From positions 835,013-899,012 of the forward strand of contig NZ_JAGIAS010000001.1 in the NCBI RefSeq assembly GCF_017744695.1: a stretch of DNA of 64,000 nucleotides, given 5' to 3'. The notes beneath the pieces were generated by a model. It worked only from the letters and a program-made list of their open reading frames with translations, was not told the DNA's origin and made no database searches. A program made the position numbers and the translations under genes. This document shows, one piece after another, positions 21,423-52,799 of this stretch. The stretch is from Dyadobacter sp. Its GTDB lineage: Bacteria; Bacteroidota; Bacteroidia; Cytophagales; Spirosomataceae. The first letter of the stretch is position 1. Every line of letters starts with the position of its first letter.

Positions 21423-21426
21423 ATTT

Positions 21427-21783: not shown

Positions 21784-21799
21784 AATTGAATAAGCTCCC

Positions 21800-29347: not shown

Positions 29348-30817
29348 TTAGTTCTGCGAAACGAGTTCGCGGTCGGGCACGCGGGTAGAGTACGGATGCT
29401 GCGCGGGTTCATCGAAAACCTGCACTTCCCAACCCATATAATTGCCCAATGCTTCTTTCAGAATGCCCGCCGTTTTGGACGCATTCATTACCACATGGTG
29501 TTCGAAACCATTGCGACAGATGTATTGCATCAGGTTTTGCAGGTTCGGGATCTCGGCCACAGCCCGGTTACCGAAGGTTTTCAGCGTATCGTCCGTCAGG
29601 CGCCCCTCCCCTATATACGCCTTCATCACCCCGCGCGGGTCGTCCGTGCTGATGCGCCCGTACGTGAGCGGCATCGCGGGTGTGCGACCAGCCAATGCGC
29701 CCCAGGTATTCTCCTCTCCCACCGACGTTCCCAGAATAGGCGCCGTCGCTATTTCGATATCCGGCAAAAACGATTTCGCCCAGTTACCGCAGTGGAACAG
29801 CACACATTTGTTATCGTCGTTGGCGTAATTGTTATTCCAATCCACCAGCGCGCTCGGCGAGCCCGATGCGAGCTGCAATGCATACATACTTAATGTACCC
29901 GTCACATCCACCTCGCAGCCGCTCGGCATCATGTTTTCACTCATGATACTCATGCTCGTGCACACATTGCAGCCGTAGTTCTGCTGTACCGAGGTCCAGC
30001 ATTGAATAGCCGTAGCATCCAGCGCATTGGCTGCCATAAATTCACCCAAAACTACATCCAGCTTCGCCATTTGGATCAATGCTTCATCCGGCGTGCGCCC
30101 CCGTGAGGCGTAGGAAGTGATTTTATCCAGACGTTCCTTCACTTTGGAATCCTGGGCGGTAAGTTTGCCGGCATTACCCAATATCTCCGACAGATCGACC
30201 GTCACGACCGAGATACCGTTGCGCTGCAATATTTTTTCGCTGTAACGCACCGTATTGAACCCGCCCGGACGAGCGCCGATCGCGCCGATGCGAACGTTAC
30301 GCAAACCTTTGGTCACACGGCACACCGCCACGAAATCATTCAAATCCTTGATAAAGGAAGGGTCGGTCGGATGTACGACGTGTTTTGTTGTAAGCGTGTA
30401 TTTGATCCCGAACTGATACAGGTTGTTGCAAGCCGAGATCTTGCCGCACCACGAATCGCGGCGGCGGGCTACGTCGAGCTTATCGAGGTCGTCGGGATAA
30501 CCTTGTACCAGCACCGGCACATTCAGATCAGCCAGTTTCAGCGTCTCGGCAATGCCGCGCTCGTCGCCGAAATTGGGCAATACCACCAGTACTCCAACAA
30601 TCTCATCCCGGTGCGCCCGGAACAATGCCGCACATTTCTGCGCATCCTGGAACGTCTCGACCCCACCCAGCTTCGTAGCTTCGGTATCAAGCGTGATCCC
30701 GTTGATATTTAACCTTTTAAGCAGATCAACGATCTCCACCCGCGCCTCGGCCACAAGCCTGTCCGGAAAAAAATCCCTATTCCCAATAATGACTCCGATA
30801 CTTCCTTTCATGTTCAT
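29348..30817 (-). CDS. L-fucose/L-arabinose isomerase-like enzyme
   Basis: A 489-residue cytoplasmic protein with the fold pattern of the fucose/arabinose isomerase family: an N-terminal Rossmann-like domain (GSIGVIIGNRDFFPD, GVLVVLPNFGDERGIAE), a second domain (VRIGAIGARPGGFNTVRYSEK) and a metal-site region with CNVCTSMSIMSENMMPSGCEVDVTGTLSMYALQLA, where the Glu/Asp residues would hold Mn2+. Members convert aldoses to ketoses. It precedes the split transketolase in the operon, so it is a candidate for making the ketose later phosphorylated and cleaved. D-apiose to D-apulose is one possibility; other pentoses cannot be excluded. Confidence 0.85.
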   Translation of the reverse strand: MNMKGSIGVIIGNRDFFPDRLVAEARVEIVDLLKRLNINGITLDTEATKLGGVETFQDAQKCAALFRAHRDEIVGVLVVLPNFGDERGIAETLKLADLNVPVLVQGYPDDLDKLDVARRRDSWCGKISACNNLYQFGIKYTLTTKHVVHPTDPSFIKDLNDFVAVCRVTKGLRNVRIGAIGARPGGFNTVRYSEKILQRNGISVVTVDLSEILGNAGKLTAQDSKVKERLDKITSYASRGRTPDEALIQMAKLDVVLGEFMAANALDATAIQCWTSVQQNYGCNVCTSMSIMSENMMPSGCEVDVTGTLSMYALQLASGSPSALVDWNNNYANDDNKCVLFHCGNWAKSFLPDIEIATAPILGTSVGEENTWGALAGRTPAMPLTYGRISTDDPRGVMKAYIGEGRLTDDTLKTFGNRAVAEIPNLQNLMQYICRNGFEHHVVMNASKTAGILKEALGNYMGWEVQVFDEPAQHPYSTRVPDRELVSQN

Positions 30818-33334: not shown

Positions 33335-35356
33335 TTACCTAACCAACGGCAGCCAAACCGACATATCCCCATGCCCACGGTTTCCCCAGGCGTAATAGGG
33401 CACCAGCCGCACGGGGATGGTTTTAGGCGCGTCGATAGACACCTCCCGATACAATTTTTTATCCCAATCAGCATTTTCCACCAGCACGGCATCGCCTTGC
33501 AAGCTCATGACCGGACTATTTTCGATCGTTAATAATGCAGGTTTAAAATTATTCCTGGCAGCGATCGCCACGTCGAAAATGGTTTTGCCTTTGGGTAAAT
33601 CTATTGACTCCACACAGTAAACAACCGGTCCGCGTTTCACTGCTACCTGGTTACGGGTTTCTTCCACGAGTGGATTGGATTCAATCAGTTTTACGGGCAT
33701 TTCGAGCATCAATTCGATCTTGTCGCCTGATTTCCAGGAGCGTTTAACTTCGGCGTAACTGCCCGAGACGAGCTTTGCCGTTTCCTTTTGACCATTCACC
33801 ATTAGCGAAGCATTGCTGCACCAACCGGGAATGCGGAAAAATAATGCCAGTGCATCTTTCGGCGCTTCATCGAGCGTCACGGAAATTCTGCCGTTCCACG
33901 GGTAATCAGTGGCTTGCGTCAGACGCAGCTGACCGCCCTTCACGGCAGTTTGAAACTTATTCCCTCCATACAAATTGAAGAACACCCCGGCATCGGAAAG
34001 GCTGTAAGCATATTGGCTCACCTCCGCCACCGTGCGCACGGTGTTAGGCGGGCAGCAGTTGGATTTCGAAATGTAGGCCTGCCGGTCCTTTTCCCAGCGC
34101 TGCTTGAAGGGCAATGCATCGGAATAGGCCAATGGATTGGTATACAAAAACTTGTCTCCCCTAAGATTGATACCCGAAAGCACGCTGTTGTACAATGCAA
34201 GCTCCACGATGTCGGCATATTTGGCGTCACCGGTGATTTGGAGCATGCGCCAGTTCCACAGGACATTACCTATGTTGGCGCAGGTTTCATTGTGGGCGGT
34301 GAAGTTGGGCAGCTGGTAATCGCGGCCGTATGCCTGATGGATTTTCTGGACTTCGTCGGGTTTGTAGGAGGTACCATCGGGAGAAACGCCGTCGTAAAGC
34401 GCACCGCAACCGCCGGTGACGTACATTTTGTGCTGCGTAACGTCATCCCACATCGTGTGCAACTGCGCGAGCAACGCCTGGTCGCCCGTCTCCGCGTACA
34501 CGTCCGCGACACCCGCGTACAGGTAGTTGGCGCGCACGGCGTGGCCCATTACCTTGGTTTGTTTCAAAAACGGAACGCGGTCCTGGTTATCGTCTGTGCC
34601 TTCCGTGGCGCCTTTGATAGCGATCAAATGCTTGACGAGCGTCAGGTATTTTTCATCGTGCGTAGTGCGGTATAGTTCCGAAAGCCCCATATAATGTGCC
34701 GGACAAATGGCGTTACGGCTTTGCTCGGGCGTGGCTGCATTGTAGAAAGTAATGAGAAAATCGGCTGCTTTTTTAGCGACGTCGAGCAGGGCGGTTTTGC
34801 CTGTGGCACGATAATGTACGCAGGCGGCGGTCATTAAATGCCCGAAATTGTAAGCTTCGAAACTAAGCCGGTCGGCAAACATTTTGCCCTCCCCGTTCTG
34901 CTTTTGTTCTATAATGGCTTTGGTATAAATGTACCCGTCGGCGCGTTGCGCCCTGGCGATCACGGCGATGGTTTTATCCATGAGCTCGTCCAGCTTCGGA
35001 TCTTTCGTCGCGGCATAAAGGCTGGCTACCGCCTCAAATGTCTTGTAAAAATCACCGTCATGGAAGGATGGGCCTTTAAAATTGCCCGGTTCCAGACCTG
35101 CCGCGATCTCGAAGTTCCGGAATGAATGGCTCAGGTTCGGGTCGGTATAAGTTTTCCAGAGCTGCGGCACCATGGTTTCGCGGCACACCCTGAACCGGTC
35201 GGCCCAAAAGCCGTCCGTCCATTGAACTGCGGCCATATCCGTGCCGTGGAGTTTCGCATACTTGCTTTGAGAGGTATTTACAAGTGCTTTTTCCTGGGCA
35301 AATGCGTGCAGGCTTAATCCCAGCGAAAGCGCAATAAAGGTTTGGGTCGTTTTCAT
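33335..35356 (-). CDS. GH127 family glycoside hydrolase
   Basis: A 673-residue exported enzyme (signal peptide ending HAFA) of GH127 (formerly DUF1680). The core is an (alpha/alpha)6 barrel. The catalytic zinc-thiolate site is visible as HNETC at 355-359 (Glu and Cys) and the double-Cys SNCCPPN at 432-438, the latter providing the Cys nucleophile and a ligand. Characterised GH127 enzymes release beta-L-arabinofuranose, and one group acts on aceric acid of rhamnogalacturonan II. The start codon directly follows the stop of the upstream sialidase-like gene (TAA-ATG), indicating coupled translation. Confidence 0.93.
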   Translation of the reverse strand: MKTTQTFIALSLGLSLHAFAQEKALVNTSQSKYAKLHGTDMAAVQWTDGFWADRFRVCRETMVPQLWKTYTDPNLSHSFRNFEIAAGLEPGNFKGPSFHDGDFYKTFEAVASLYAATKDPKLDELMDKTIAVIARAQRADGYIYTKAIIEQKQNGEGKMFADRLSFEAYNFGHLMTAACVHYRATGKTALLDVAKKAADFLITFYNAATPEQSRNAICPAHYMGLSELYRTTHDEKYLTLVKHLIAIKGATEGTDDNQDRVPFLKQTKVMGHAVRANYLYAGVADVYAETGDQALLAQLHTMWDDVTQHKMYVTGGCGALYDGVSPDGTSYKPDEVQKIHQAYGRDYQLPNFTAHNETCANIGNVLWNWRMLQITGDAKYADIVELALYNSVLSGINLRGDKFLYTNPLAYSDALPFKQRWEKDRQAYISKSNCCPPNTVRTVAEVSQYAYSLSDAGVFFNLYGGNKFQTAVKGGQLRLTQATDYPWNGRISVTLDEAPKDALALFFRIPGWCSNASLMVNGQKETAKLVSGSYAEVKRSWKSGDKIELMLEMPVKLIESNPLVEETRNQVAVKRGPVVYCVESIDLPKGKTIFDVAIAARNNFKPALLTIENSPVMSLQGDAVLVENADWDKKLYREVSIDAPKTIPVRLVPYYAWGNRGHGDMSVWLPLVR

Positions 35357-37189
35357 TTAAAATGATCTGGTAATCAGATAATCAATGGCAAATACAGCTT
35401 CCGGATCCTTGATGCCGCCATCGGGCAGGTCATACATCTGGTCGGTGGGTGTATCCGCATCCGGGAAACGACGGGTGTCGCCAGTACGGAATGCGATACG
35501 GCTCACGGCTTCCAGCGGCGCGAAAAGCACCCCGGCACCAACCTGTTTGCCATTCACCACGACGGAGTAGAGCCGCGTTTCGGTATTGGCCTGCACTTTA
35601 ATGTCGTAGCGCTGACCCTTCCGGTATTCCAGAAGCGTTTTATTGCGGTAGCCCGCCTTCAACCGGAACACGCCTGTTGAGTCAAAAGACAAACGAATGC
35701 CCGGCGTACCCTTGGCATCAAGGAATTCGATATCCAGCAATCCGGTATCGTTTTGATTGGGCGTGACGGCAAACTCGGCCACCAGCTTTTTCGTAGCCGG
35801 CACCACCCGTTCTACCCGGGCATAGTCGAAATGGTCGGCGTCTTTGATAATCAATGCCTTCCCATTCTGCGTTTTACCAATTGCCACCGGCGCTTGCAGC
35901 GGACTGTAAATGTTCCACTCAGCCAGTTCCTTTCCATCCGGCATTTCCCCAAAACGGTCCAAAGCGTGTTTTTCGGCTTTATCCCGCACAGGTACCGGTA
36001 TTTCCGACACCCAGATATCCTCCTTGTTCATGCTGTAAGTCACCCAAAGATTGCCGTCGGGCGGCGTACCGTCCCCTTCGGAAATGCCGCGCACGTACTG
36101 CGGGCCGTAGGATTTATAGTTACCTCCATAGCGCATCGAGGTAATTTCGCCATTCACAAGCAACAGGTTTTTGTAATTCAAACCATCGTCGCTCACCGAA
36201 ATCGCCAGCGGCCAGCGGAATTCGGAAGGATTGTAGACTGTCGCGTATTTACCATCCGACGTTTTTTGTCCCCAGATTTTGGCATTACTGTTCACAAAAC
36301 CCGGTGCGCGTTTGGGATTGTACAGCCAGGTCTTGCCCTCATTTTTACTGATACTGGTCAATGCATTTTTCCAAAGACCTACCACCCTACCATCCGGTAA
36401 ATGGTAGTAGCTGAATGCTTTATATTCTCCCTTCAAACTCACCAGCGGGTCATTGCGATCCGCCTCTTCTACCCATTGCTGGGTTACTAACTTGTTCGCC
36501 AGGAGTTCGTCGCAGGCTTCCACAAAACCTTTGTCCTTACTTTCGGTATACATCGGATAATCCGAAGGCACTTTCCAGGAAGCATTATGCCTGATAAAAT
36601 AGATCGGGCCGTAAGTACCATCCCTTTTGATTTCCCGCACTACCCTGCCGATACCATACCCGTCGTTCGGGTCGTCTTTTGCATCGAGTACCATCCCGAA
36701 ATACGCCAATATTAGCAACCGGTTGCTTTTGGATACATAGAAACCCATGCGCTGGTGCATCACGGCATACAAATCTTTCGCAACACCGGCATGACCTTCT
36801 TTTCTGGTGCCATCCGGGATTTTGTAAGGCGGAAAAATCGCCACCGGTTTCGTCCAGACTTTACCGTCTTTGGAGGTTTGCAAAAGGGTCTGCCCCGGCG
36901 GAATATGCTCACCCACCGGATTACTGAGATAATTCAGATAGAATGCCCCGTTCCAATAGGCCAGCATCGGCGCGTGGTTGTACGTCCAGGTAATGGCCGA
37001 GTCCTTGCTCGCGTCCGTCCGGTCCGCGCGTAACGTCTGGTAAGAATGCACACCGATGGCGGGACTCAGCTGCCCGTGGTGGTAGTCCACATTCACGAGT
37101 GTTTTGCCCGTATAGCGGATCGTATCCTGCGCATTCGCCGCACCGATTGCCAGGCATAAAGCCAGCGTATGTATTAATTCTTTCTGCAT
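35357..37189 (-). CDS. Sialidase-fold (BNR propeller) secreted protein with lectin-like C-domain
   Basis: Start set at the ATG at 37189 (MQKELIHTLALCLAIGAANAQ), 4 bases after the GH140 stop; the ORF's first 29 residues overlap GH140 and are not credible. The 610-residue protein has a propeller region with Asp-box-like turns (LLQTSKDGKVWTKPV, SISKNEGKTWLYN, SVSDDGLNYKN) and a C-terminal laminin-G/concanavalin-like domain (HFDYARVERVVPATKKLVAEFAVTPNQND). I cannot assign a CAZy family. Within a GH140/GH127 operon it could act on an acidic sugar such as Kdo or Dha of RG-II, which is only an inference. Confidence 0.8.
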   Translation of the reverse strand: MQKELIHTLALCLAIGAANAQDTIRYTGKTLVNVDYHHGQLSPAIGVHSYQTLRADRTDASKDSAITWTYNHAPMLAYWNGAFYLNYLSNPVGEHIPPGQTLLQTSKDGKVWTKPVAIFPPYKIPDGTRKEGHAGVAKDLYAVMHQRMGFYVSKSNRLLILAYFGMVLDAKDDPNDGYGIGRVVREIKRDGTYGPIYFIRHNASWKVPSDYPMYTESKDKGFVEACDELLANKLVTQQWVEEADRNDPLVSLKGEYKAFSYYHLPDGRVVGLWKNALTSISKNEGKTWLYNPKRAPGFVNSNAKIWGQKTSDGKYATVYNPSEFRWPLAISVSDDGLNYKNLLLVNGEITSMRYGGNYKSYGPQYVRGISEGDGTPPDGNLWVTYSMNKEDIWVSEIPVPVRDKAEKHALDRFGEMPDGKELAEWNIYSPLQAPVAIGKTQNGKALIIKDADHFDYARVERVVPATKKLVAEFAVTPNQNDTGLLDIEFLDAKGTPGIRLSFDSTGVFRLKAGYRNKTLLEYRKGQRYDIKVQANTETRLYSVVVNGKQVGAGVLFAPLEAVSRIAFRTGDTRRFPDADTPTDQMYDLPDGGIKDPEAVFAIDYLITRSF

Positions 37190-37193
37190 AATC

Positions 37194-38552
37194 CTATTTT
37201 TCCAACACCAAAACCCAGTCATTCCCGTTTCTAACCTCCCCGGGCGGGTTAAATGTTTTAATGCCTTTGTTTTCAATTTTTCCTAAAATCCGGGTTTGGC
37301 CGGTGCGCGGGTCGTACCAGCTGGCCTGCACCTCGGCACCGCCGATTTTCCCCATGCGGATCTTCATATCCCGTCCATTCCAGGTATAAATCAAAGCATA
37401 ATCCTTACCCCGCGTCGCAAGCAGGCGATCGTACCGCTCGCCGTTTTCAGCGATCAGTGACTGGTCGGGGACCCGTTCGAAGTAGGGTTTCGAGAGCATT
37501 AATTTTTTCAAATGCATCATTTGGCCTGCCCCGGGGTCGTCAATGGCTTCCTCCCAAGAGGGTAGTTTAGGGTCTCTCGCATATCGCATTTGCATCACCC
37601 CATTGTTCCCGTATGTGAACCCGCAGGCACCCGCGAACACCGACCAATAAGCATATCGCCGCACATCGTCGGCCGTCCACACGGGCAGCGTTTTGTCGTG
37701 CAGGCCATGCCAGATGTTCTCATAGGAAGGCTCACCATCGAGCACGGGTTTTACAGGTGTGCGGGCATAATCAGCTTCCACATAACGCCAGTTATCCTCG
37801 CCGTAACGCAAATCTTTGGGGTCGTTATCCTGCGCATACGTGCGATGCCCCGACTGGAACATGTTGAAATCCAGCCACAGCCGGTCATGAAACCATTTCG
37901 AAGACTGCATTCTGCCAAACGGATGGAAAGTAATGAGATGGTTCGGATCTTCGGCACGCAATGTGCTGCCGATCGCCTCCCAGACCTCAGGCACAACATC
38001 CCCCTGAATATCCCCTCCGTTAATCCACACAATATTCGGCCGATCGCGATAGCGCCTCGCCAAAAACTGTGCGTAAGCCTTCGCCTGCGCCGCGCTGGTC
38101 TTCCCATTCTTCACAGCATTCCCCCAAATGGGTACCATACCAATTTGGATACCCTTTTCCGCAGCCTTTCCTACAATGTAATCTATGTGGTCCCAATAGT
38201 CGTATTGTTCCTGATTCTCAAACGCACTCCCTTCTGTCACTTTTGGGATGCCCAAATCATGGTTTGTCAATGCGGAATCGCCGTACACATTTACCGTACG
38301 TAATGCCTGCACCACCATTACCTGCACCACGTTGAAGCCTTTTTGTTGCCGATCGGCCAGGTAGCGATCGGCCTCCTCGCGGGTAAGCCGGTTAAAAAGC
38401 AGCCAGCCGGTGTCAGCAAGCCAAAAGAACGGCTGTCCGTTCTGGTCTGTGAAAAACCGTTTGTTCTCCGAGATTTTCAGCGACTGGCTATAAACAGGCT
38501 TTGTGCCGGCGATGATACCGGCACAAAGCAGCGCCAGGAGTTTAAAGTTCAT
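37194..38552 (-). CDS. GH140 (apiosidase family, DUF4038) enzyme
   Basis: A 452-residue exported protein with the GH140/DUF4038 plan: SLKISENKRFFTDQNGQPFFWLADTGWLLFNRLTREEADRYLADRQQKGF, an N-terminal signature strong enough to place it. A TIM barrel follows with IVWINGGDIQGD (about 175-186) and VLDGEPSYENIWHG (270-283), which carry the likely catalytic carboxylates, and a C-terminal beta-sandwich (putative collagen-binding domain). The founding GH140 enzyme cleaves D-apiose linkages in rhamnogalacturonan II. It is separated from SusD by a long repeat spacer and coupled to the sialidase-like and GH127 genes. Confidence 0.92.
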   Translation of the reverse strand: MNFKLLALLCAGIIAGTKPVYSQSLKISENKRFFTDQNGQPFFWLADTGWLLFNRLTREEADRYLADRQQKGFNVVQVMVVQALRTVNVYGDSALTNHDLGIPKVTEGSAFENQEQYDYWDHIDYIVGKAAEKGIQIGMVPIWGNAVKNGKTSAAQAKAYAQFLARRYRDRPNIVWINGGDIQGDVVPEVWEAIGSTLRAEDPNHLITFHPFGRMQSSKWFHDRLWLDFNMFQSGHRTYAQDNDPKDLRYGEDNWRYVEADYARTPVKPVLDGEPSYENIWHGLHDKTLPVWTADDVRRYAYWSVFAGACGFTYGNNGVMQMRYARDPKLPSWEEAIDDPGAGQMMHLKKLMLSKPYFERVPDQSLIAENGERYDRLLATRGKDYALIYTWNGRDMKIRMGKIGGAEVQASWYDPRTGQTRILGKIENKGIKTFNPPGEVRNGNDWVLVLEK

Positions 38553-38711: not shown

Positions 38712-40142
38712 TTAATACCCTGCATTCTGCGTAATCTTGGCGTTCTGGTCCCTGACGATATTCGGAATCGGGAAAATAAGCTTGTTCTGCGTCACGGGCT
38801 TACCTTTCGCCGTCAATACATCGACCACGCGATTGGTACGCTTCAAATCAAACCAGCGGTGGAATTCGAATGCAAGCTCCACGCGGCGCTCGTGCTCTAC
38901 GGCCAATGCCACGGTGCTGTATTTGGCTGGATAACCGGCTTCTCCGTACAACGGCAATCCGGCGCGTTTGCGTACCTGGTTCAGGTAAGTGGCGTCGCCG
39001 GTGGCTTCCGAGAGTAACAGCAGCAGGTCTGCGTAGCGCAACACCATGAAGTTGTTATTGGCAGCAATGTTTTGGTTAATCAGAGGTGCAGTTTTATCCT
39101 GCCATTTTTTAGGGAATTTGGTTTTGGTAAAATTCCCCTTTGCATCAGTAAAGCCCGTGTCGATCGACGCTTCGCGGCGGCCGTCTCCTTTTTCGTATTC
39201 ATTCCAGATATCTTCCACCACCTGGTTCATGCCGGCGCCATAAAAGCCCAATGCATTGGAATTAGGGAAAAATTCGAGATAGTAGTTGCTGTAAGGAGAG
39301 GTCGCCGAACCTCCGAGGAACTGGATTTCGAAGATCGACTCTTTCGTATTCTTGTTCTTGGCATCCCAAAGTGAGATAAACGTGGGCAGCAAATCATACT
39401 GTTTGCTATCGTATACTTCTTTCAGCTCCTTCACACCGTTAGCCTTGTCGCCCGTTGTGAGGTAAACTTTTCCAAGCAATACCTGCGCCGCTCCTTTGGT
39501 AGCCCGCCCGGCAATCGCCTGGGTAGCCGGCAGTTTGGATTTTGCGTCGACAAGGTCTTTCGTGATTTGCGCATAGATTTCGGTCGCCGGCGTACGCAAA
39601 ATATCGTAGGCTTCTGCCGCGCTCACCGGACGCGTTACCAGCGGCACATCGCCCCAGAGCTGCACCATATTGAAGTAATACAACGAGCGCAGGAAGAGCA
39701 TTTCGCCCTGGGTCTGGGCTTTGTAGGTAGCGTCGAGGTCGGTATTCTGGATTTTGTCGAGAATGATGTTGATGTTGTAGATCGAGCGGTAGAAATCCTG
39801 CCAGAATTGGTACACCATTGTGTTCGCAGGCGCGAGCGTGTAGTCGCGGAACTGCCATTTATCGGCCTGGTTGCCCGAAATGTTGTAGATCGTGACGTTA
39901 TCCGACATCAGCTCGCCGGCGTAGGAAACGGGCCCCTGCGGGTGGTACACGGTGTAAAGCGTGTTGTACGCCGCATTGGCCGCGAGGTCGAAATCCGATT
40001 TTGTTTTATAAAAATTCTCGGCGCTGGGATTGGATACCGGCGCCAGTTCGAGGAATGAGTCCTTGCAGCTCCAACTTGTGGCCATGAGTGCTGCGAGCGT
40101 GATCGATTTTATGATTGTTTTCATCAGTCTTCGTGTTTTCAT
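38712..40142 (-). CDS. SusD/RagB-type glycan-binding lipoprotein (locus 2)
   Basis: The ATG at 40142 (MKTRRLMKTIIKSITLAALMATSWSCKD) lies 4 bases after the SusC stop; the ATG at 40124 is also possible. Lipobox ATSWSC. The 476-residue protein shows the SusD helix EMLFLRSLYYFNMVQLWGDVPLVTRPV, RATKGAAQVLLGKVYLTTGD, the C-terminal LALAVEHERRVELAFEFHRWFDLKR and the closing IPNIVRDQNAKITQNAGY. It is the surface glycan-binding partner of the adjacent SusC and heads the GH140/GH127 enzyme group, so it probably binds oligosaccharides from apiose-containing pectin. Confidence 0.95.
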   Translation of the reverse strand: MKTRRLMKTIIKSITLAALMATSWSCKDSFLELAPVSNPSAENFYKTKSDFDLAANAAYNTLYTVYHPQGPVSYAGELMSDNVTIYNISGNQADKWQFRDYTLAPANTMVYQFWQDFYRSIYNINIILDKIQNTDLDATYKAQTQGEMLFLRSLYYFNMVQLWGDVPLVTRPVSAAEAYDILRTPATEIYAQITKDLVDAKSKLPATQAIAGRATKGAAQVLLGKVYLTTGDKANGVKELKEVYDSKQYDLLPTFISLWDAKNKNTKESIFEIQFLGGSATSPYSNYYLEFFPNSNALGFYGAGMNQVVEDIWNEYEKGDGRREASIDTGFTDAKGNFTKTKFPKKWQDKTAPLINQNIAANNNFMVLRYADLLLLLSEATGDATYLNQVRKRAGLPLYGEAGYPAKYSTVALAVEHERRVELAFEFHRWFDLKRTNRVVDVLTAKGKPVTQNKLIFPIPNIVRDQNAKITQNAGY

Positions 40143-40146
40143 GGCA

Positions 40147-43100
40147 TTAGAAATCAGCCTTAATCCCAACAGTAATCACCCTGGGCAACGGATAAGATCC
40201 ATAGTCCACCCCCTGGAATGCCCCCGGCACCGGTGCGTTACCGCTGCTGTACGAACCCGAAGTTTCCATGCTCGACGAATAGGAAGTCGTTCCATAAGTC
40301 GTATTCTCGGGATCGTAACCAATGTATTTGCTCCACAAATGCACATTCTCCGCATTCACATACACCCGCGCACCGCTCACTTTCAGCTTGGAAACCCATT
40401 TCGCAGGCACCGCGTACGACACGCGCACGTTCCGCAATCGCACGAACGAAGCATCCTCGACCCAGTAAGAAGAAAATTGCTTTTGCAATCCGAGATAATT
40501 CACCGACGGCTTGAAATGCCTTCCGTCACCAGGGTTACTCTCCGACCGCCAGTAGTTATACATGTTGGCAAAGAAATTCCGCCCATTGTCCCAGGTACCC
40601 AGGTAGCGCACATTGTTATTCGCGATCTCGCCACCAAATGAGCCTTGAAACAGGAACGATAACTCAAAACCTTTGTAACCCACCGTGTTGGTAATACCGG
40701 CTGTAAAATTCGGCTGATAGTTACCCAGGATTGTCCGGTCGGCATCGCTGATCTTGCCGTCGCCGTTCACGTCGCGCACTTTCGGGTCACCTGGCGTAGT
40801 GCTGCTGTGGTGCGGATAGGCATCGATTTCCGCCTGATTTTTGAAAACGCCATCGAAAATGTAGCCGTAGAAATTCGAAACCGGCTGGCCTACTTCGGTG
40901 CGCACCGTCACGACGTTGTCGACGTACTGGATCGGGGCATTGCCCGGACCGAGTTGCAGCACTTTGTTCCGGTTCCTGGAAATATTGAAATCCGTTGTCC
41001 AGGTCACTGCGCCCGTCAGATTTTTGGTAGAAATATTCAATTCTACACCACGGTTACGCATTTTTCCGATGTTGGTCAACTGGGTAGAGAACCCGGTAAT
41101 ATCCGGCACCGGCACAAAAAGGAGCATATCCCGGGTGAGCGAGTTGTAATACTCTGCCGAAAGATTAATGCGGTTATTAAAAAGACCTAGATCCACACCT
41201 ACGTTGAACTGATTGGTCTTCTCCCATTTCAGGTTCGGGTTTGCCAGGCTACTCACTTTCAAACCATTGGCCAGATTGGAGCCGTTTACATACTGCGCCG
41301 CAGCCAGCAGACTGATCGCCCCGTAGTTAGGGATCTGGTTGTTACCCGTCACACCGTAGCTTGCACGAAGTTTCAGGTTGTTCACCGCTGTTACTCCCGA
41401 CATGAATGCTTCATCCGAAAGCAACCAACCCGCCGATACCGAAGGGAAATATCCCCATTTATTGTTTTCACCAAAGCGCGACATCCCATCGCGGCGCAAA
41501 GCACCCGTAAGGAAATACCTGTTTTTGAAGTTGTACTGAATCCTTGCCAGGTACGACAGCAGTGACCACTCACTGGCCGTGGTATTGCCGGCCGTCACGG
41601 TTCCCGCATTCAGCGTATGCACCAGGTCGTTCGGAAAGTTGTTGGCGGCTACGTACATCGTTTCGTCCCGCTGTTTTTGGCTGGTATAGCCGAGCAGACC
41701 GGTAAATGCGTGCTCGCCGAACTTCTTGTCGTAAGTCAAAGTATTCTCACTTAGCCAGTTTAGCATGTAAGCATCGCTTGCATTGCCTTGCGCGGCCAGC
41801 ACGGCGGAGTAGCCATATTTCTGTTTATCGTTCCAGTAAAAATTATTCCGCATATTGTACAGGTTACCACTCAGGCTGGTGCGAAACCGCAGACCGTCGA
41901 TGAACTCGTATTCCAGGTAGCCTGTCGCCAGGGTGTTGAACGACTTCCGACCCTTATCGACTTCGCGTGTGAGCGAGTACGGGTGCCAGAGGTTCATGTC
42001 CGCATATTGCGTAAACCGGAACCAGGTCGAATTCGGGTCGCGGAAGCCCAGGTTGCCGTTTTCATTGTAAACCGGAAAAATGGGGTCGCTTTGCAGGCCA
42101 AGGCTGATTACATCGCTCTTACCCTGCGTCCCCTCGGTGCGGTCGAAAATCGAAGTTATACCTATATTCAACCCAGCGCTGAGCCGCCTGGAAATCTGAG
42201 TCTTAAGATTCGACCTGAGTGCAAGGCGTTTGTAATAGTTAGCATCGAGAACCGCCGTTTGGTCCAGATAGGCACCCGAAAACATGTACTGCGTCTTCTC
42301 GGTACCGCCAGTCACTGTTACTTGCGCATTGAACGACGGTGCGGTGCGGAACATGACGTTCTGCCAGTCGGTACCTTTTCCGAATTGCTGCGGATTGGTT
42401 GTAAAATCCTCCGGGATACGCAATGTCGTCGGACGGGCACTGTTCGGATCACTCGCATTCCCGCCCTGGGCGGTCCAGGCATTGTTTTTAGCATCAATAT
42501 AGGTTTCGATAAACTGCTGCGCATCCATCATTTTAACGCGGCGCGTCACCTTTTGCGAGCCATATTCGACGTTTGCGCTCACATTCACCTTGCCGGGCTT
42601 ACCCGTTTTGGTCGTAACGATTATCACTCCGCTCGAACCGCGCGAACCGTAAATAGCTGCCGATGACGCATCTTTCAGCACTTCGATCGACTCGATATCC
42701 TGGGGGTTGATCAGGTTGAGGTTGAAATTTTCCAGCGGAACCCCATCCACAACGATCAGTGGGTTGGTACCTGCGGTGATCGAACTGATACCACGGATTT
42801 TGATCACCGGTGAAGCCCCCGGCGCACCCTGCGATTGCGAAATATTTACCCCCGGCAACGTTCCGGCCAGCGACTGGCTGACATTACTGAATGAACGATC
42901 CTTAAACTTATCATAGTTAACGGAAATCACCGCCCCGGTCACCGCCCGCTTACTCTGCGTTCCGTAACCGACCACTACCACCTCTTCCAGCGATTTGTTT
43001 TCGGGCACAAGCCTTACAGCGATGTCGGTACGTGCACCGACGATTTCCTCCACGGATTTGTACCCCACAAAACTGAATACCAGCACAGTAGCCTGGTCCG

Positions 43101-43299
43101 GCACGTCGATCTGGAATGCGCCGTCCGAATTGGTGGTCGTTCCACGTTGCGTGCCCTTGATCACGACGCTCACACCCGGCAGCGGATCAGCATCGCTCAC
43201 ACCCGTCACCCTGCCCTTCACGGACAGCGTCTGCGCATGTACCGCCGGGAGTACCAGCAGGCATACCAGCATGATGCGTAAGAGTTGTTTCATAAACAT
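40147..43299 (-). CDS. SusC/RagA TonB-dependent transporter (locus 2)
   Basis: A 1,050-residue receptor (ATG at 43299, or 43293). After the signal peptide (LVCLLVLPAVHAQ) it begins directly with the carboxypeptidase-like domain (GRVTGVSDADPLPGVSVVIKGTQRGT), with no STN domain, so it is not tied to FecR signalling. EEVVVVGYGTQSKRAVTGAV and the plug GSRGSSGVIIVTTKTGKPG follow, then the barrel ending YGSYPLPRVITVGIKADF. It imports oligosaccharides with its SusD. The AT-rich 240 bases upstream contain its promoter, but I cannot fix the elements. Confidence 0.95.
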   Translation of the reverse strand: MFMKQLLRIMLVCLLVLPAVHAQTLSVKGRVTGVSDADPLPGVSVVIKGTQRGTTTNSDGAFQIDVPDQATVLVFSFVGYKSVEEIVGARTDIAVRLVPENKSLEEVVVVGYGTQSKRAVTGAVISVNYDKFKDRSFSNVSQSLAGTLPGVNISQSQGAPGASPVIKIRGISSITAGTNPLIVVDGVPLENFNLNLINPQDIESIEVLKDASSAAIYGSRGSSGVIIVTTKTGKPGKVNVSANVEYGSQKVTRRVKMMDAQQFIETYIDAKNNAWTAQGGNASDPNSARPTTLRIPEDFTTNPQQFGKGTDWQNVMFRTAPSFNAQVTVTGGTEKTQYMFSGAYLDQTAVLDANYYKRLALRSNLKTQISRRLSAGLNIGITSIFDRTEGTQGKSDVISLGLQSDPIFPVYNENGNLGFRDPNSTWFRFTQYADMNLWHPYSLTREVDKGRKSFNTLATGYLEYEFIDGLRFRTSLSGNLYNMRNNFYWNDKQKYGYSAVLAAQGNASDAYMLNWLSENTLTYDKKFGEHAFTGLLGYTSQKQRDETMYVAANNFPNDLVHTLNAGTVTAGNTTASEWSLLSYLARIQYNFKNRYFLTGALRRDGMSRFGENNKWGYFPSVSAGWLLSDEAFMSGVTAVNNLKLRASYGVTGNNQIPNYGAISLLAAAQYVNGSNLANGLKVSSLANPNLKWEKTNQFNVGVDLGLFNNRINLSAEYYNSLTRDMLLFVPVPDITGFSTQLTNIGKMRNRGVELNISTKNLTGAVTWTTDFNISRNRNKVLQLGPGNAPIQYVDNVVTVRTEVGQPVSNFYGYIFDGVFKNQAEIDAYPHHSSTTPGDPKVRDVNGDGKISDADRTILGNYQPNFTAGITNTVGYKGFELSFLFQGSFGGEIANNNVRYLGTWDNGRNFFANMYNYWRSESNPGDGRHFKPSVNYLGLQKQFSSYWVEDASFVRLRNVRVSYAVPAKWVSKLKVSGARVYVNAENVHLWSKYIGYDPENTTYGTTSYSSSMETSGSYSSGNAPVPGAFQGVDYGSYPLPRVITVGIKADF

Positions 43300-43540: not shown

Positions 43541-44141
43541 ATAGAAAGAATTGCAGCGCAGCATTACATCGATACCCCTTATGCAGTAGAAAAGGCGGCG
43601 GTACTGGCCGGAGAACAATCGTCGGGAACATTCGTGGAGGTACCAGCGAAACCGAAGCGCTTAAAACCCGGTTTGCGGCCCGGGTAGAACATACCTGTGC
43701 ATTGACACAAGGATTTCAGGAAATCACTTTCGACACACCCGCCACTGCCTCCGGAGCGCACGATCCGACATTTTCGGTGAAATTGAAAGAGCAATCCGGT
43801 TCATCGAAAAAGGCCAAAGCGTGATCATCCACACCAGCAAAGGCACTCTGGACACACGATTTGTCCATTCAAACGATATTCTCAAAAACAAAGGTTTATC
43901 AATCACTGAAATCCGAACACTTACCTCCTCGCGGTACGGCAAAGCACTCCGCAGCATCGCCCGCCAGGTAATTACCACCACCGCCGTTCAGCGCCTCGTC
44001 ATAGCCGCGGAGGCGACACATCGGGCGTGGTGGCGAGGACGCTCTGTATCAAAGCCGTCGAAATGCTCGCCCCGCTATCCCCTGGCACACCACTCTACCG
44101 ATGGGTTGGAGGTTAATTTTAAGGGTGGACAGGTTGGTTAG
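43541..44141 (+). pseudogene. Fused remnant: RuBisCO-like N-terminus joined to DUF1537 kinase C-terminus
   Basis: From 43541 one frame reads IERIAAQHYIDTPYAVEKAA then VLAGEQSSGTFVEVP, the N-terminus of RuBisCO-like proteins; the expected ATG is ATA. One base is missing near 43646, and the next frame continues ETEALKTRFAARVEH of the same family. From about 43691 the homology changes to DUF1537 (OtnK-type kinases): LTQGFQEITFDTPA, then after a frameshift near 43770 EIERAIRFIEKGQSVIIHTSKG, and YGKALRSIARQV. After another shift near 44008 it reads GGDTSGVVARTL and MLAPLSPGTPLYR, and after a short deletion DGLEVNFKGGQVG. Both gene bodies were joined by a large deletion and then decayed. Confidence 0.85.
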
Positions 44142-44280
44142 GAGGAGACTAGACGTAGGAATCTTACGAACCGATAATCGACCAGTAGTGTTGCACGCTA
44201 ACCGATACAGGGAAGTCGCTAAATAACGACCCAAACCTCGATTTATCTTCGTATCTTTATAAAAAGCAACTTCCCAAAAA

Positions 44281-44514
44281 ATGGAGCATTGGCAAGAGCG
44301 GATCAGCATCAATCCTGAAATAAGGTTTGGAAAGCCCTGCATTAAAGGTACCAGGATAGCTGTGCGTGACATCCTGAACTGGCTTGCGAGCGAAAGGACC
44401 TTTGAACAAATCATAGACGATTTCCCGCCACTCACACGGGAGGATATCCTTGCAGCGCTTGAATTTGCCGCAAACGGAGAAGAAAATACTAAAATTCTAA
44501 TCACAGCAACATGA
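44281..44514 (+). CDS. DUF433 antitoxin
   Basis: A 77-residue protein of the DUF433 family: RISINPEIRFGKPCIKGTRIAVRDILNWLASERTFEQIIDDFPPLTREDILAALEFAA. The 'NP...GKPCIKGTRI.V..IL..LA.G....(E/Q)I...FP.LT.EDI.AAL' line is diagnostic. These winged-helix proteins are antitoxins of DUF5615/PIN-like toxins and likely repress their own promoter; TATCTTTA about 25 bases upstream resembles a Bacteroidota -7 element. Its TGA overlaps the ATG of the toxin gene. Confidence 0.92.
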   Translation: MEHWQERISINPEIRFGKPCIKGTRIAVRDILNWLASERTFEQIIDDFPPLTREDILAALEFAANGEENTKILITAT

Positions 44515-44846
44515 AATTTCTTTTTGACGAGAACATATCTTACAGAATCGTCAAAAAGCCAAAATCTTCGTTGCCCGAATGTGTTCATGTTAGCCAGACT
44601 CGTCTCAAATACGCCTCTACCGACCGCAACATTTGGGAATATGCAAAAACGAGAGAGTATACCATCATAACATTCGATGAAGATTTCAGAAAACTAGCGA
44701 ACCTTCTTTCATTTCCTCCCAAAGTTATCCTGTTTAAAAGGAAAAACTGTTCAACAGATTTACTGGTGATGTTACTACAAGATAGACGAGAGGAAATCAC
44801 AGCATTTCACAAATCTGAAATTGATGGGATATTGGAGATATCCTGA
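44511..44846 (+). CDS. DUF5615 PIN-like toxin
   Basis: A 111-residue PIN-like protein with the family pattern MKFLFDENISYRI at the N-terminus (acidic residues D and E of the nuclease site), then 'SD..IW.YA....Y.IIT.D.DF' seen as TDRNIWEYAKTREYTIITFDEDF, which adds further acidic ligands. Such toxins are proposed RNases paired with DUF433 antitoxins. Overlap with the antitoxin gene (ATGA) indicates coupling. The gene converges on the broken symporter. Confidence 0.9.
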   Translation: MKFLFDENISYRIVKKPKSSLPECVHVSQTRLKYASTDRNIWEYAKTREYTIITFDEDFRKLANLLSFPPKVILFKRKNCSTDLLVMLLQDRREEITAFHKSEIDGILEIS

Positions 44847-45350
44847 GCTTTCTCTACCCGCCCCTCCTCCCTCTTCCGCCAATAATTAGCCAAAATCGCC
44901 CCTGAAATATTCATCCACGGACTAAACACCGCAGAGGCCTTGTCCGGACGGAGTAGCCTACTTATCCGGTAGTCAAAGAAATACCCAGCCGAATTGTGCG
45001 CGATAGACACGAAAAAGAGCAGAAGCCGACTTGCAAAAGATTATCACGCCCAGCGGCAGTGGTAAGGGTAGTGAAATAGATGAAAGTCGTGGATCAATGC
45101 GGCCCCGATGGTTACAATAACGATCTTGATGATTTCCATGATCATATCGAAAAAGCGGATAGGAGTAAGCCTCCCGGCGAGGATTTTCATCAGAAACGGC
45201 GTCAAAAACGGTGCCGCAAGTGTGGTCATAGCGGTCACGACCACAGAAAACACCAGGTTAGCCCTGGCGATGTAATACATTACATTGGAAGCCAATCCGC
45301 CCGAACAAGAACCCAACAGAATAATGAAACGGCCGGATCGGCCATCGGCT
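44826..45350 (-). pseudogene. Broken bile acid:sodium (BASS) symporter gene
   Basis: Minus-strand pieces match the BASS family in order. The first reads FIILLGSCSGGLASNVMYYI then ARANLVFSVVVTAMTTLAAPFLTPFLMK (45330 to 45100). It passes via a frameshift into NLLQVGFCSFFVSIAHNSAG and YFFDYRISRLLRPDKASA (45030 to 44935). The conserved 'RTVAIEVGMQN' segment is then deleted and the frame jumps to VFSPWMNISGAILANYWRK. The N-terminal third is missing. The original gene was a sodium-coupled carboxylate-type transporter. No recognisable coding sequence fills 45351-45500. Confidence 0.8.
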
Positions 45351-45528
45351 GATCAACGCGGAGCGCAGGCACCGACGACAGCGCGGCGGCAGCCTCCACG
45401 GCCCTGCCTGTGGACGAGTACGTTACCAGAATTACTATCTCTGCGGTGAAGCGAAACGAAGTTTCCTTTCGTTTAACATTCTAATTGTCTCAAAATTCAA
45501 CCCAATAGTCCCACGACGCAAAGACAAA

Positions 45529-45591: not shown

Positions 45592-47193
45592 TTATCGGCC
45601 CCGGTACTCTTTAATCCGCAGCGCCAGGTAGGGCGCCATAGGCAAACGGATCGATGTTCTTTTCTTGTCGTAAATCCTGTAATCGGTAGCCTCGCCGATC
45701 TCGAAAACCTCCGGGCGCTCATCGATCGTCATATTCCAGGTATCGATTACTTCCACTTTAAACTTCTTTCCCGTCTTTGGCCCTCCTTTGCGCGGAAGGC
45801 TGAATTCCCACTCCGGCTGCATATTCTTGCCCAGATACACGAGGTAATAGGTGCTATCAGCACGCGAAGTATGATGATCCTTCCACGGATCCGCCAATTC
45901 CAGCGGCCCCGGCGCCTCTTCGAGTATCTTTCTAAGGAAACCGATCCGGGCTGGACTGCTGCCGATCAGCCGGCCGCCTTTGGCCCAAAAAATCGTATCG
46001 CCCGCATTCATGTACGTCTCCCCGTGCGTCACATACGTACCCGCGATCACGCCCTGCCAGAAGGCCTCGGTCATTTCCTCGCCGCTCAAATGTCCCCAGC
46101 GCTGCTGCAAATCCCCTTCATAGCAGACCTCATCGTACACCATCGGTTTGAAAAACACATCCCTCAACAGCGTCGCGCGGCCGAAATCCTCCACCGTCGA
46201 GCCATTCTGGATACTGACGTGCGTAAACTCCGGCTTCCAGTTGTCGTAATAAACACTCCCATTGTGGATCGAACAAAGATGACCATAGGGATCTGCATCC
46301 ACCACCGCTTTGGTATAAATGTCCCAGTCGGCCCGGGGCTTCGTTTTGATATAATCGAATTCGTTAGCCATTGACCACCATACATTCCGGAACGACGCCA
46401 GACGGGCCGTCAGGTACCGGATGTATTTCAGGTCATTCTCTTTACCAAGACTGTCAAATCCCCAATGACCCTTATCATACGGATGGAAAACAATGATATC
46501 AGCTTCAATACCCAATTTTTTCAGATCATCGATCCGTTTTTCCAGATGCTGAAAAAAGACCGGCTCGAACCGCGAGAAGTCCCACTCAAATTTCGGTTTA
46601 CCTTTCGCACCCGTTGTTTCCGATTTTTTCACAAAAGGATAGTAAGGCGGCTCGTTCTCGACATGGGAGTAATATTTCGGAAACACACACATTCTGACCT
46701 TGTTAAAAGGGCCATTTGCAAGCGTTTTTAAGGTAATTTCCTCCAAACCTTCGGGCTGGTGTGTCCATGCATACAAGGTAGTCCCGAAAGGATAGTACCG
46801 CTTACCATCGGCATATTTGAAATGATAGGTATCGGCTACCTGCACGGGGCCGTGATTGTCCCCGGCGGGTTCCACGCAAGAGAATACCCCGGTTTTCCCG
46901 TTCAACAATTTACTGGTGCTGATTGTCTTATATTTCCATTCTCCGGTTTTTTGGGGCATGAAACGTATTTTATATTGACCGTTTCCGTCGTAGAACCCAT
47001 CCACCTTGATTTTTTCCGTCTCGTTCGAAAACTCGGCAGACAAGCTGACGTCATCAAATGGATTACCGGTTTGCGGCCCGGCAAGCGTAACCTCAAACCG
47101 CTCCCATCGCTCTACGCGCGCCCCTGCCCGATCCTGCCCGAAAACGGAAAGCGAACACCAGAAAAGTAAACCTACTAAACAAGCAAACCTCAT
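45592..47193 (-). CDS. DUF5060/DUF4038-type putative glycoside hydrolase
   Basis: The ATG at 47193 (MRFACLVGLLFWCSLSVFG) is preferred to the TTG two codons earlier. The 533-residue exported protein has an N-terminal DUF5060 beta-sandwich (VERWERFEVTLAG..GNPFDDVSLSAEFSN), a TIM barrel (RYYPFGTTLYAWTHQ, NKVRMCVFPKYYSH, VWWSMANEFDYIK, VYDEVCYEGD) and a C-terminal DUF5605-like sandwich. The ANE and DE segments likely hold the catalytic acids. The barrel is related to GH140. It starts 2 bases after the FGGY kinase stop, so enzyme and kinase are one operon; substrate unknown. Confidence 0.85.
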   Translation of the reverse strand: MRFACLVGLLFWCSLSVFGQDRAGARVERWERFEVTLAGPQTGNPFDDVSLSAEFSNETEKIKVDGFYDGNGQYKIRFMPQKTGEWKYKTISTSKLLNGKTGVFSCVEPAGDNHGPVQVADTYHFKYADGKRYYPFGTTLYAWTHQPEGLEEITLKTLANGPFNKVRMCVFPKYYSHVENEPPYYPFVKKSETTGAKGKPKFEWDFSRFEPVFFQHLEKRIDDLKKLGIEADIIVFHPYDKGHWGFDSLGKENDLKYIRYLTARLASFRNVWWSMANEFDYIKTKPRADWDIYTKAVVDADPYGHLCSIHNGSVYYDNWKPEFTHVSIQNGSTVEDFGRATLLRDVFFKPMVYDEVCYEGDLQQRWGHLSGEEMTEAFWQGVIAGTYVTHGETYMNAGDTIFWAKGGRLIGSSPARIGFLRKILEEAPGPLELADPWKDHHTSRADSTYYLVYLGKNMQPEWEFSLPRKGGPKTGKKFKVEVIDTWNMTIDERPEVFEIGEATDYRIYDKKRTSIRLPMAPYLALRIKEYRGR

Positions 47194-47195
47194 GA

Positions 47196-48707
47196 TCAAT
47201 GTGTTATAGAAACCTGCGATACACTTCCGACAGCCTCTTGCCAGCCACGATAGCTTGCTTTTACTGCCTCGTTTGCTGCGTCGGGGGGTATTGCCGAATG
47301 GCCCGCACTTAATTTTTGCAAATAGTCGATATCAGGATAAACACCTGCGTACAAACCCGAAAGATAAGCCGCGCCCAAAGCCGAAACTTCCGGAAACCCA
47401 AGGTTTACGACGGGCTTGCCGAGCAAATCAGCCAACATTTGTACGACGAAAGAATTGGAAGTCAACCCTCCGTCTATTTTCAATTCCTGCAGCGCAACGC
47501 CCGTATCCGATTCCATCGCCACGATTACGTCCATGATCTGAAACGGAATGGACTCCAGCGCCGCCCGCACGATATGATTTTTATTTGAATTGAATGTCAG
47601 ACCTGTGATGGATGCTTTCCGGCTCATATCCCAATACGGGGCACCTAGTCCGCTGAACGCCGGAACAAGGTAAACTCCTCCGCTATCCGTCACCGACCGA
47701 GCCATGAGCTCCGTTTCCCGTACGTCACTAAACAGGCCGAGATGCGTTTTAAGCCACTCGATCGTTGCTCCGCAGGTCACAATCACGCCTTCCAGCGCGT
47801 ACTCTACCCTATTGCCAGCGCTCCAACCAATGGTCGTCACCATACCCAGCTGTGAAGACTTCGGTTCGGGACCTATATTCATCAGGATCGAAGAACCTGT
47901 GCCCAATGTAGCTTTGGCAATCCCGGGGCCAAAGCAGCCTTCCCCGAAAGCCGCCGCGTGCGAATCACCGATCATCGCTGTGACCGGTATGAGTGCAGAC
48001 AACATGCCTCCAAAGTCCGTTTCCCCGAAATGCGAAGAAGAAGCTTGTATCTCAGGCAAATGCAATCCATCCAACCCGAATGACTGCAATAACTCATCAT
48101 CCCACGACAGCGTTTCTAAGTTAAAGAACAGCGTGCGTGATGCATTGCTGTGATCGGTGAGATAGGCCGCGCCCCCGGTCAGCTTATAGAGCAACCAGGT
48201 ATCTATCGTCCCGAAAAACGCATTACCCTGTGCAATGGCCTTTTTTACATTTTCATTGTAGAGGTTCAGCCAGATTACCTTCGACCCGGAAAAATAGGGA
48301 TCAGCAAGCAGCCCTGTCTTCTCCCGGATCATTCCTTCCAGTCCCGCCGCCCGCAATTGCTCGCATACCGCTGTCGACCGTTTGCATTGCCATACTACCG
48401 CATTGTGCAGTGGTTTCCCATCCCGATCCCAAAGCACAAATGTCTCCCGCTGGTTGGAAACGCCGCACGAACGGATATCCTCTATACGTCCGTCTTTCGA
48501 CGTAAAATCGGCGAGGCACTGAGCCACTGAGGCCAGTACGTTCTCATAAATCTCCTGCGGGTCCTGCTCCACCAGACCACCGTCGAGGTACATGGTGTGC
48601 AGGGGCTCGCTACCCCGCGCCACCACTTTTCCTTTTTCGTTAAATATGACGGTTTTAGTACTGCTCGTACCCTGATCGATCGCCAGCACAAATGGGCCGT
48701 TCAACAT
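47196..48707 (-). CDS. FGGY-family carbohydrate kinase, glycerol-kinase-like
   Basis: A 503-residue cytoplasmic kinase. IDQGTSSTKTVIFNEKG (residues 10-26) is the phosphate-1 motif, CGVSNQRETFVLWDRDG and LVPAFSGLGAPYWD are typical of the glycerol kinase branch of the FGGY family, and LKIDGGLTSNSFVVQMLADLLG is the adenosine motif. No glpF or glpD is nearby; instead it is coupled to a secreted DUF5060/DUF4038 enzyme within a GH140 region. It may therefore phosphorylate the sugar of this locus (D-apulose is proposed), though glycerol kinase activity cannot be ruled out. Confidence 0.88.
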   Translation of the reverse strand: MLNGPFVLAIDQGTSSTKTVIFNEKGKVVARGSEPLHTMYLDGGLVEQDPQEIYENVLASVAQCLADFTSKDGRIEDIRSCGVSNQRETFVLWDRDGKPLHNAVVWQCKRSTAVCEQLRAAGLEGMIREKTGLLADPYFSGSKVIWLNLYNENVKKAIAQGNAFFGTIDTWLLYKLTGGAAYLTDHSNASRTLFFNLETLSWDDELLQSFGLDGLHLPEIQASSSHFGETDFGGMLSALIPVTAMIGDSHAAAFGEGCFGPGIAKATLGTGSSILMNIGPEPKSSQLGMVTTIGWSAGNRVEYALEGVIVTCGATIEWLKTHLGLFSDVRETELMARSVTDSGGVYLVPAFSGLGAPYWDMSRKASITGLTFNSNKNHIVRAALESIPFQIMDVIVAMESDTGVALQELKIDGGLTSNSFVVQMLADLLGKPVVNLGFPEVSALGAAYLSGLYAGVYPDIDYLQKLSAGHSAIPPDAANEAVKASYRGWQEAVGSVSQVSITH

Positions 48708-51881: not shown

Positions 51882-52799
51882 TCAGGACTGAAAAACGGTT
51901 TTCATAAAAACGGTATTAGCGCTGAAATTACCTTTCACGTCGCGCGGCTTGCTGGCGTCGCGCGAGCGCTCGATTACCAGCCAGCCTTTCCAGCCCATTT
52001 TGTCGAGCGTGGCTTTTACTTTCTTCATATCCAGCCTCGTATTATTTTGGAGCCATACACCGTCTTCGTCGGTACAATGGATTTGGCAAATGCGGTTTTT
52101 ACCCAAAATGCGCAGCTCTTCGCACAAGTCGCGGCCAGCTTTGAGCGGATTGGAGAAATTGAAATAGATCTGAATGTTCTTAGAACCAATTTCTTTGAGT
52201 AATTCCACCTCTCCTTTCGCATCCAGCGCTGTTTCAATCCCGATTATCACACCGGCCTTTTCGGCCATTTTACCCACTGTTTTCAGCCTTTCCACGATCG
52301 CAGGCCTTAGTTCCGGATTTTTAACCAGATCCCCCTGAATACCGAGCGGCAGGAATGCGGTTTTGATGCCCATTTGCCTCATGGTCTCGATGCAATCGCC
52401 CACCATCTTTTCAGCGCCGTCGCGTTTGGCAAAAGACTGTGCATAAAAGCCCGTCATAGCCAGCGAGCAGATTTCCAGGTTCAGCTCTTTGGCTTTGTCA
52501 AGATATTGCTGGCGCACAGCCGGGTCTGCGAGCTTGTTATCGAAGGTCGGCCCGTCGCCCAGGCCGCCCATATCCACTTCCAGGCCGTCCGCTCCGATTT
52601 CACCGGCGAGCGGCAATGCGCTGATTTTCTGCCTTTTCAAAATCATCAGATCGATCACGGCTATCTTATACCGAACTTTTTTCATAGCGCGCATCGCCAT
52701 GCCGGACATATCCATGCGGGACATCTCCAAAGCCCACGACGAAACCGGCAGCACCACCAACCCGGCAGCGCAGATATTCAGGAAATTTCTTCTTTTCAT
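51882..52799 (-). CDS. Exported sugar phosphate isomerase/epimerase-like TIM barrel
   Basis: A 305-residue protein of the AP-endonuclease-2/xylose-isomerase-like TIM barrel family: GEIGADGLEVDMGGLGDGPTF, LEICSLAMTGFYAQSFA, GVIIGIETALDAKGEVELLKEIGSKNIQIYFNFSNP, and CQIHCTDEDGVWLQNN carry the usual Glu, Asp and His metal ligands. The N-terminus MKRRNFLNICAAGLVVLPVSSWA resembles a twin-arginine signal, so it likely acts in the periplasm. Such exported members occur widely in Bacteroidota glycan loci, with unknown substrates. Confidence 0.85.
   Translation of the reverse strand: MKRRNFLNICAAGLVVLPVSSWALEMSRMDMSGMAMRAMKKVRYKIAVIDLMILKRQKISALPLAGEIGADGLEVDMGGLGDGPTFDNKLADPAVRQQYLDKAKELNLEICSLAMTGFYAQSFAKRDGAEKMVGDCIETMRQMGIKTAFLPLGIQGDLVKNPELRPAIVERLKTVGKMAEKAGVIIGIETALDAKGEVELLKEIGSKNIQIYFNFSNPLKAGRDLCEELRILGKNRICQIHCTDEDGVWLQNNTRLDMKKVKATLDKMGWKGWLVIERSRDASKPRDVKGNFSANTVFMKTVFQS

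Follow-up and report, generated by a model that had tools for sequence, protein, structure and literature searches.

Remains of a four-gene operon with a RuBisCO-like protein in a Dyadobacter RG-II locus, and its probable link to aceric acid

Decayed and intact genes of the locus

The window, i.e., the whole 64,000-nucleotide stretch of Dyadobacter sp. DNA analyzed here, carries an RG-II locus encoded on the minus strand. RG-II (rhamnogalacturonan-II) is a pectin found in every land plant, and one of its components is aceric acid, a rare branched acid. The locus includes an intact GH127 aceric acid hydrolase (33335–35356; NF049879, 1178.9 bits, cut-off 950), an intact BT_1020-like (GH143-type) RG-II hydrolase (35357–37276; PF24067, 392 bits), an intact GH140 apiosidase (37194–38552; PF13204, 392.5 bits, plus PF12904) and the SusD and SusC genes (38712–43299), which is consistent with release of both aceric acid and apiose. 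Further along the same strand lie a DUF5060/apiosidase-like/DUF5605 protein (45592–47199) and an intact FGGY (GlpK-like) kinase (47196–48707). The latter probably forms, together with an intact split transketolase (27455–28417 and 28436–29299) and an intact Fucose_iso_C-family isomerase (29348–30817), an isomerase/kinase/transketolase-type apiose route, and it is likely that the strain still uses apiose via these putative functions. At the edge of the locus, a GH43-like lipoprotein gene (20465–20818) has decayed to ~117 codons (304 aa in D. jiangsuensis), and two small genes at 20960–21790, the second of which appears PemK/MazF-like by eye, replace a GNAT-like gene of D. jiangsuensis.

On the plus strand, 242 bp from the start of SusC, the segment 43541–44147 spells across three frames the N-terminus of a RuBisCO-like protein (RLP) followed by the C-terminus of a DUF1537 sugar-acid kinase. 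The original prediction had read these peptides from the DNA alone, placed them about 0.2 kb from the SusC of the GH140 locus and expected a frame-tolerant comparison to recover both families, and all of this was borne out. Using the intact D. jiangsuensis proteins as tblastn queries, we recovered codons 1–52 of the 420-codon RLP in two frames at 43541–43692 (E 2.5e-13) and codons ~294–451 of the 465-codon kinase, likewise in two frames, at 43696–44147 (match from 43699; E 6.5e-39). At the DNA level, the RLP part is ~75–79% identical to its closest syntenic intact copies over ~300 bp, and the kinase part 72–76% identical over ~390–470 bp, with a best E-value of 8e-76. The only PF17042 (NBD_C) match in the 7.8 Mb genome is the scar itself, which contains an internal stop and scores below the cut-off (E 9e-5, 25.2 bits), and a search of this genome for a second intact copy of either the RLP or the DUF1537 kinase found none.

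Alignment to the relatives resolved the lesions, which agree with the predicted ATA start codon, indels and large deletion. In the RLP remnant the ATG start has become ATA and there are one 3-bp and one 1-bp deletion, the kinase remnant has frameshifting indels and a 26-bp deletion, and ~2 kb is missing between the two. A true RLP-kinase gene fusion, as the scar had been described, was rejected: the relatives have two separate adjacent genes overlapping by 4 bp, so the window contains a deletion junction. Divergence at second codon positions is 0.09–0.10 for the remnants vs. 0.03–0.06 between intact copies, whereas third positions are alike, and therefore constraint was lost fairly recently. 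The remnants are thus pseudogenes, having lost start and frame and showing relaxed constraint relative to the intact orthologues. Although short reading frames such as 43821–44141 are still open, there is practically no chance that the similarity is compositional or that a short gene still functions here, because the scar aligns at 72–79% with syntenic intact genes and has lost its start, its frame, much of its length and its second-position constraint.

The original prediction missed two further ruined genes on the minus strand, with which the wreck continues to 45432. A BASS/SBF (PanS-like) transporter is represented by a frameshifted remnant at 44852–45081 (codons ~316–426 of 427) and a second piece at 45083–45325 (codons 151–231; tblastn E 1.1e-35), followed by a remnant of an Asp/Glu-racemase-like gene at 45325–45432 (codons 73–108 of 222; tblastn E 9.8e-11). 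All four genes are intact in 11 Dyadobacter genomes, flanked as in the window by SusC and DUF5060, in agreement with the expectation that relatives would have adjacent RLP and DUF1537 genes at this place. In these genomes an RLP of 420 aa and a kinase of ~465 aa are encoded opposite a BASS/SBF carrier of 427 aa and a racemase-like protein of 222 aa. The scar is thus almost certainly a decayed four-gene module. A horizontally acquired scar or transposon remnant was considered and found no support, as the module occupies the same site in 11 relatives.

Inside the wrecked operon, a whole toxin-antitoxin pair retains its third-codon-position bias. It consists of two intact plus-strand genes, recognized by similarity and codon-position pattern, which we take to be a DUF433-type antitoxin (44281–44510) and a DUF5615-type (PIN-like) toxin (44511–44846). 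Some relatives that have an intact module carry the pair at this position too, and in two loci (L026 and L028) it is itself partial.

Among the Dyadobacter genomes compared, which include D. jiangsuensis DSM 29057 (G067) and D. fermentans JDP9 (G062), the module has been lost repeatedly. In a tree of the SusC and DUF5060 genes, the window strain and two further genomes, G093 and G086, nest separately among genomes with an intact module, and therefore at least three independent losses occurred in the genus. In G093 (L036) the RLP is cut at codon 356, the kinase and transporter are lost and the racemase-like gene is left; its aceric acid hydrolase is truncated (G093:C1:5125193-5126623), and its DUF5703 and SusD genes are frameshifted. 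In G086, RLP remnants alone are left of the module.

The intact operon and its association with aceric acid hydrolase

The RLP of the intact relatives matches PF00016 (223.7 bits) and PF02788 (39.1 bits) as a form IV RuBisCO-like protein and keeps the GTIIKPS, KDDE, HRN and HVNGI-NK motifs, which contain the catalytic Lys and the metal-ligand residues. Their kinase matches PF07005 (181.9 bits) and PF17042 (119.8 bits), only part of the latter being retained in the window. The racemase-like protein belongs to PF01177 (83.1 bits) and has two catalytic-type cysteines, conserved in 75/75 and 70/75 sequences; a PDB search with it gave weak matches only. The transporter shares PF01758 (113.3 bits) with PanS/BASS carriers, its nearest equivalog being PanS at 210 bits, below the cut-off of 400. 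PanS carries the branched hydroxy acids pantoate and ketopantoate.

The nearest NCBIfam models of the RLP and the kinase are OiaX (495.7 bits) and OiaK (444 bits), respectively, both hits falling under cut-offs of 700. OiaK and OiaX, along with OiaT, are steps of oxidative D-apiose pathways according to Carter et al. 2018, as that work is cited in PMC6302742. The module resembles OiaK/OiaX systems in that its RLP and DUF1537 kinase genes are overlapping neighbors and in that the RLP conserves the RuBisCO-type active-site Lys, Asp, Glu and His. However, it differs from OiaX and OiaK in forming a separate RLP clade, with ~53–55% identity for the RLP and 41% for the kinase. Tetronate kinases of the OtnK/DtnK type have the same SBD_N and NBD_C architecture (PF07005 and PF17042), but the module kinase scores 167 and 79 bits against their models, far under its OiaK score, and its partner is an RLP rather than an OtnC-type decarboxylase.

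Outside the window, kinase, racemase-like and BASS genes accompany the module-type RLP in 62 of 64 loci with full flanks (Bacteroidota and Verrucomicrobiota) and in 17 of 18 further module loci. Cultured carriers of all four intact genes include Dyadobacter jiangsuensis DSM 29057 and Flavobacterium pectinovorum. In Rufibacter tibetensis the whole module is located on a 235 kb mobilizable plasmid (NZ_CP012644.1, L191), where its neighbors include a pectinesterase and further glycoside hydrolases.

By far the commonest neighbor of the module is GH127 (39/80 loci). In 25 of the 80 loci, spread over ~19 genus-level groups, it lies directly upstream of the RLP on the same strand with a gap of −24 to 125 bp. 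A GH127 gene is present within 10 kb of the module in 33 of 64 loci, as compared with 4 of 64 for GH140, and 28 of these 33 module-linked GH127s score above ~950 bits to the "aceric acid hydrolase" model NF049879. The module GH127s are of the BT1003 type: in the three tested, the best PDB match is 5mqo, with 826–864 bits vs. 383–415 for the next one. BT1003 of B. thetaiotaomicron, a GH127 enzyme, is reported to be the aceric acid (3-C-carboxy-5-deoxy-L-xylose) hydrolase (PMC10850190, PMC5698469), and the window GH127, as well as most module-adjacent GH127s, passes the equivalog cut-off of NF049879.

Among 391 genomes of the order, a BT1003-type GH127 occurs in 19/19 with the module vs. 28/372 of the others (Fisher p ~7e-20, a value that, like the other counts, ignores phylogeny). 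In a later sample, the hydrolase exceeded the cut-off in 7/7 genomes with the module from other parts of the phylum and in 10/10 further Dyadobacter, so that every module genome sampled (36/36) has an aceric-acid-hydrolase-type GH127. GH127 and GH140 are often found in the same RG-II eaters, and so the association partly reflects a shared RG-II lifestyle: a close GH140 is present in 15 of the 19 module genomes of the order, whereas four with module and GH127 lack it. Many genomes have GH127 without the module. The other neighbors are enzymes of the RG-II side-chain type, including GH137-like proteins, a rhamnosidase and an esterase. Taken over these loci, the four genes are a conserved unit tied to the aceric acid hydrolase.

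Enzymes that release aceric acid are already known, and a search of the open-licence literature for a bacterial catabolic pathway of this acid found none described. In other genera the candidate catabolic operon comes immediately after the hydrolase gene, and the papers searched describe no operon of this kind. The novelty is the intact operon beside the aceric acid hydrolase, to which the scar led and which can be tested in cultured strains.

A candidate pathway for aceric acid and other possible substrates

The scar is most likely the wreck of a catabolic operon for L-aceric acid of RG-II side chain B, judging from gene content and neighborhood, and aceric acid is the probable substrate of the module as a whole. 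By analogy, the chemistry of the lost operon would be OiaK/OiaX-like. Keto sugar acids are the phosphoryl acceptors of DUF1537 kinases, and the compound from which RLPs of the OiaX type remove CO2 is CH2OP-C(=O)-C(OH)(COOH)-CH2OH.

In the proposed pathway, the periplasmic GH127 would free aceric acid, and the BASS (PanS-like) symporter would import the free acid. The aldose would then be turned into its 2-ketose by an isomerase, for which the racemase-like protein with its two cysteines and a TIM-barrel protein are candidates. The TIM-barrel candidate is an intact xylose-isomerase-like protein (51882–52799 on the minus strand in the window), an orthologue of which lies directly upstream of the RLP in Hymenobacter loci; its gene is also kept in Dyadobacter without the module. 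Phosphorylation by the DUF1537 kinase of the CH2OH beside the ketone would yield CH2OP-C(=O)-C(OH)(COOH)-CHOH-CH3, that is, the OiaX substrate with a hydroxyethyl group replacing the hydroxymethyl. The RLP would decarboxylate this keto acid phosphate to 5-deoxypentulose 1-phosphate, which a housekeeping aldolase could split into dihydroxyacetone phosphate and acetaldehyde. Among the conserved genes of the operon there is neither a dedicated isomerase nor a dedicated aldolase.

In the window strain this pathway would be gone and the hydrolase kept, being needed to open side chain B; with its hydrolases and apiose gene set retained, the strain may free aceric acid merely to get past it. Since Dyadobacter drop the pathway and mostly keep the hydrolase, such strains would release a sugar they no longer eat. 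On balance, we favor the view that GH127, RLP, DUF1537 kinase, racemase-like protein and BASS carrier make up an undescribed aceric acid catabolic pathway, in which the RLP would be a form-IV RuBisCO that removes CO2 from a 3-C-carboxy-5-deoxypentulose phosphate, and that Dyadobacter repeatedly lose this pathway while mostly keeping the hydrolase. If this is true, the natural substrates of RuBisCO-like proteins would include a class that is new for them.

The module could alternatively serve another branched acid of RG-II or of plants (e.g., Dha, apionate or a methylated or lactone form), its linkage to the hydrolase reflecting merely shared RG-II loci. The PanS-like carrier suggests a free carboxylate, and enzymes for other parts of RG-II do occur nearby, with GH143 (the Dha hydrolase type) near the module in 7 of 64 loci as well as in Dyadobacter, and GH137-like proteins in 14 of 64. 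However, GH127 is the sole hydrolase that is directly operonic, with gaps often under 30 bp, and on chemical grounds beta-keto decarboxylation by the RLP fits Dha poorly, as Dha is not a tertiary-carbinol acid. We consider this alternative unlikely.

Comparison with the oxidative apiose gene sets

The original prediction took the RLP and DUF1537 pair as a hallmark of oxidative apiose pathways and the scar as a lost alternative route for apiose. The decayed pair does lie in an apiosidase (RG-II) locus as proposed, yet its intact homologues remain below the OiaX and OiaK cut-offs. A second type of RLP/kinase pair occurs in six genomes, one of them Dyadobacter G054, and the one copy scanned has 485.5 and 436 bits to OiaX and OiaK. 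Since both RLP types score alike below 700, these cut-offs do not discriminate between them, and classification of the pair by NCBIfam scores proved unusable. The types are nevertheless distinct: module RLPs and those of the second type separate in the tree with support 1.0, and in the RLP search of the 391 genomes of the order the module type scores at least 759 bits and the other at most 587. The stretches HRNGWGM and NKFWESDD of the module RLP also differ from their counterparts in the ApnO-linked type.

The gene neighborhoods of the two types differ as well. In 6/6 loci the second type is accompanied by a gene of the PF16896 family and by a 640-aa gene. The former matches PDB 5t57 with 328 bits, and we take this family to be ApnO; the latter would be an ApnL-like lactonase. 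Homologues of ApnO and ApnL are beside the module in 0/18 loci outside the genus and in 0/64 loci of the named collection (0/82, the two sets overlapping in some species), and PF16896 was absent from the window genome and from all module-bearing Dyadobacter genomes searched. Conversely, an aceric acid hydrolase over the cut-off was found in 0/6 of the genomes with the ApnO-linked RLP.

These data bear on the possibility that the module supplied the last steps of an oxidative D-apiose pathway, with OiaK as kinase and OiaX as decarboxylase acting on 3-oxo-isoapionate 4-phosphate, duplicated the isomerase/transketolase route and disappeared. Besides OiaX and OiaK being the closest models, this reading can draw on the position of the Dyadobacter module ~5 kb from a GH140 apiosidase, in a locus that also holds isomerase, kinase and transketolase genes, and on Runella and Marinoscillum, where isomerase/transketolase genes likewise lie close to the module. 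Nonetheless, ApnO and ApnL homologues are consistently found with the other RLP type, including that of Dyadobacter G054, and never beside the module, and three of the only four loci with GH140 within 10 kb belong to Dyadobacter. We therefore regard a lost apiose route as decidedly improbable and the original prediction as probably wrong on this point. Unlike the OiaK/OiaX apiose set, the module combines its RLP and kinase with a racemase-like protein, a BASS carrier and the aceric acid hydrolase. The missing ApnO/ApnL, the rarity of GH140 nearby and the often abutting hydrolase make aceric acid the likelier substrate of the lost route, and the mere presence of an RLP next to a DUF1537 kinase should not lead to annotation as an apiose pathway.

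Two related gene sets were noted in the course of the comparison. In Dyadobacter G054 (L035, 3271–13326), the OiaX/OiaK-like pair occurs with the ApnO-family gene, an ApnL-like gene of 643 aa, a Gfo/Idh dehydrogenase and an ABC transporter, which looks like a genuine oxidative apiose set. In another genome (G193, L066, 9494–12808), a member of the module's racemase-like family lies beside a different DUF1537 kinase and SusCD with no RLP, which suggests a related acid-sugar pathway.
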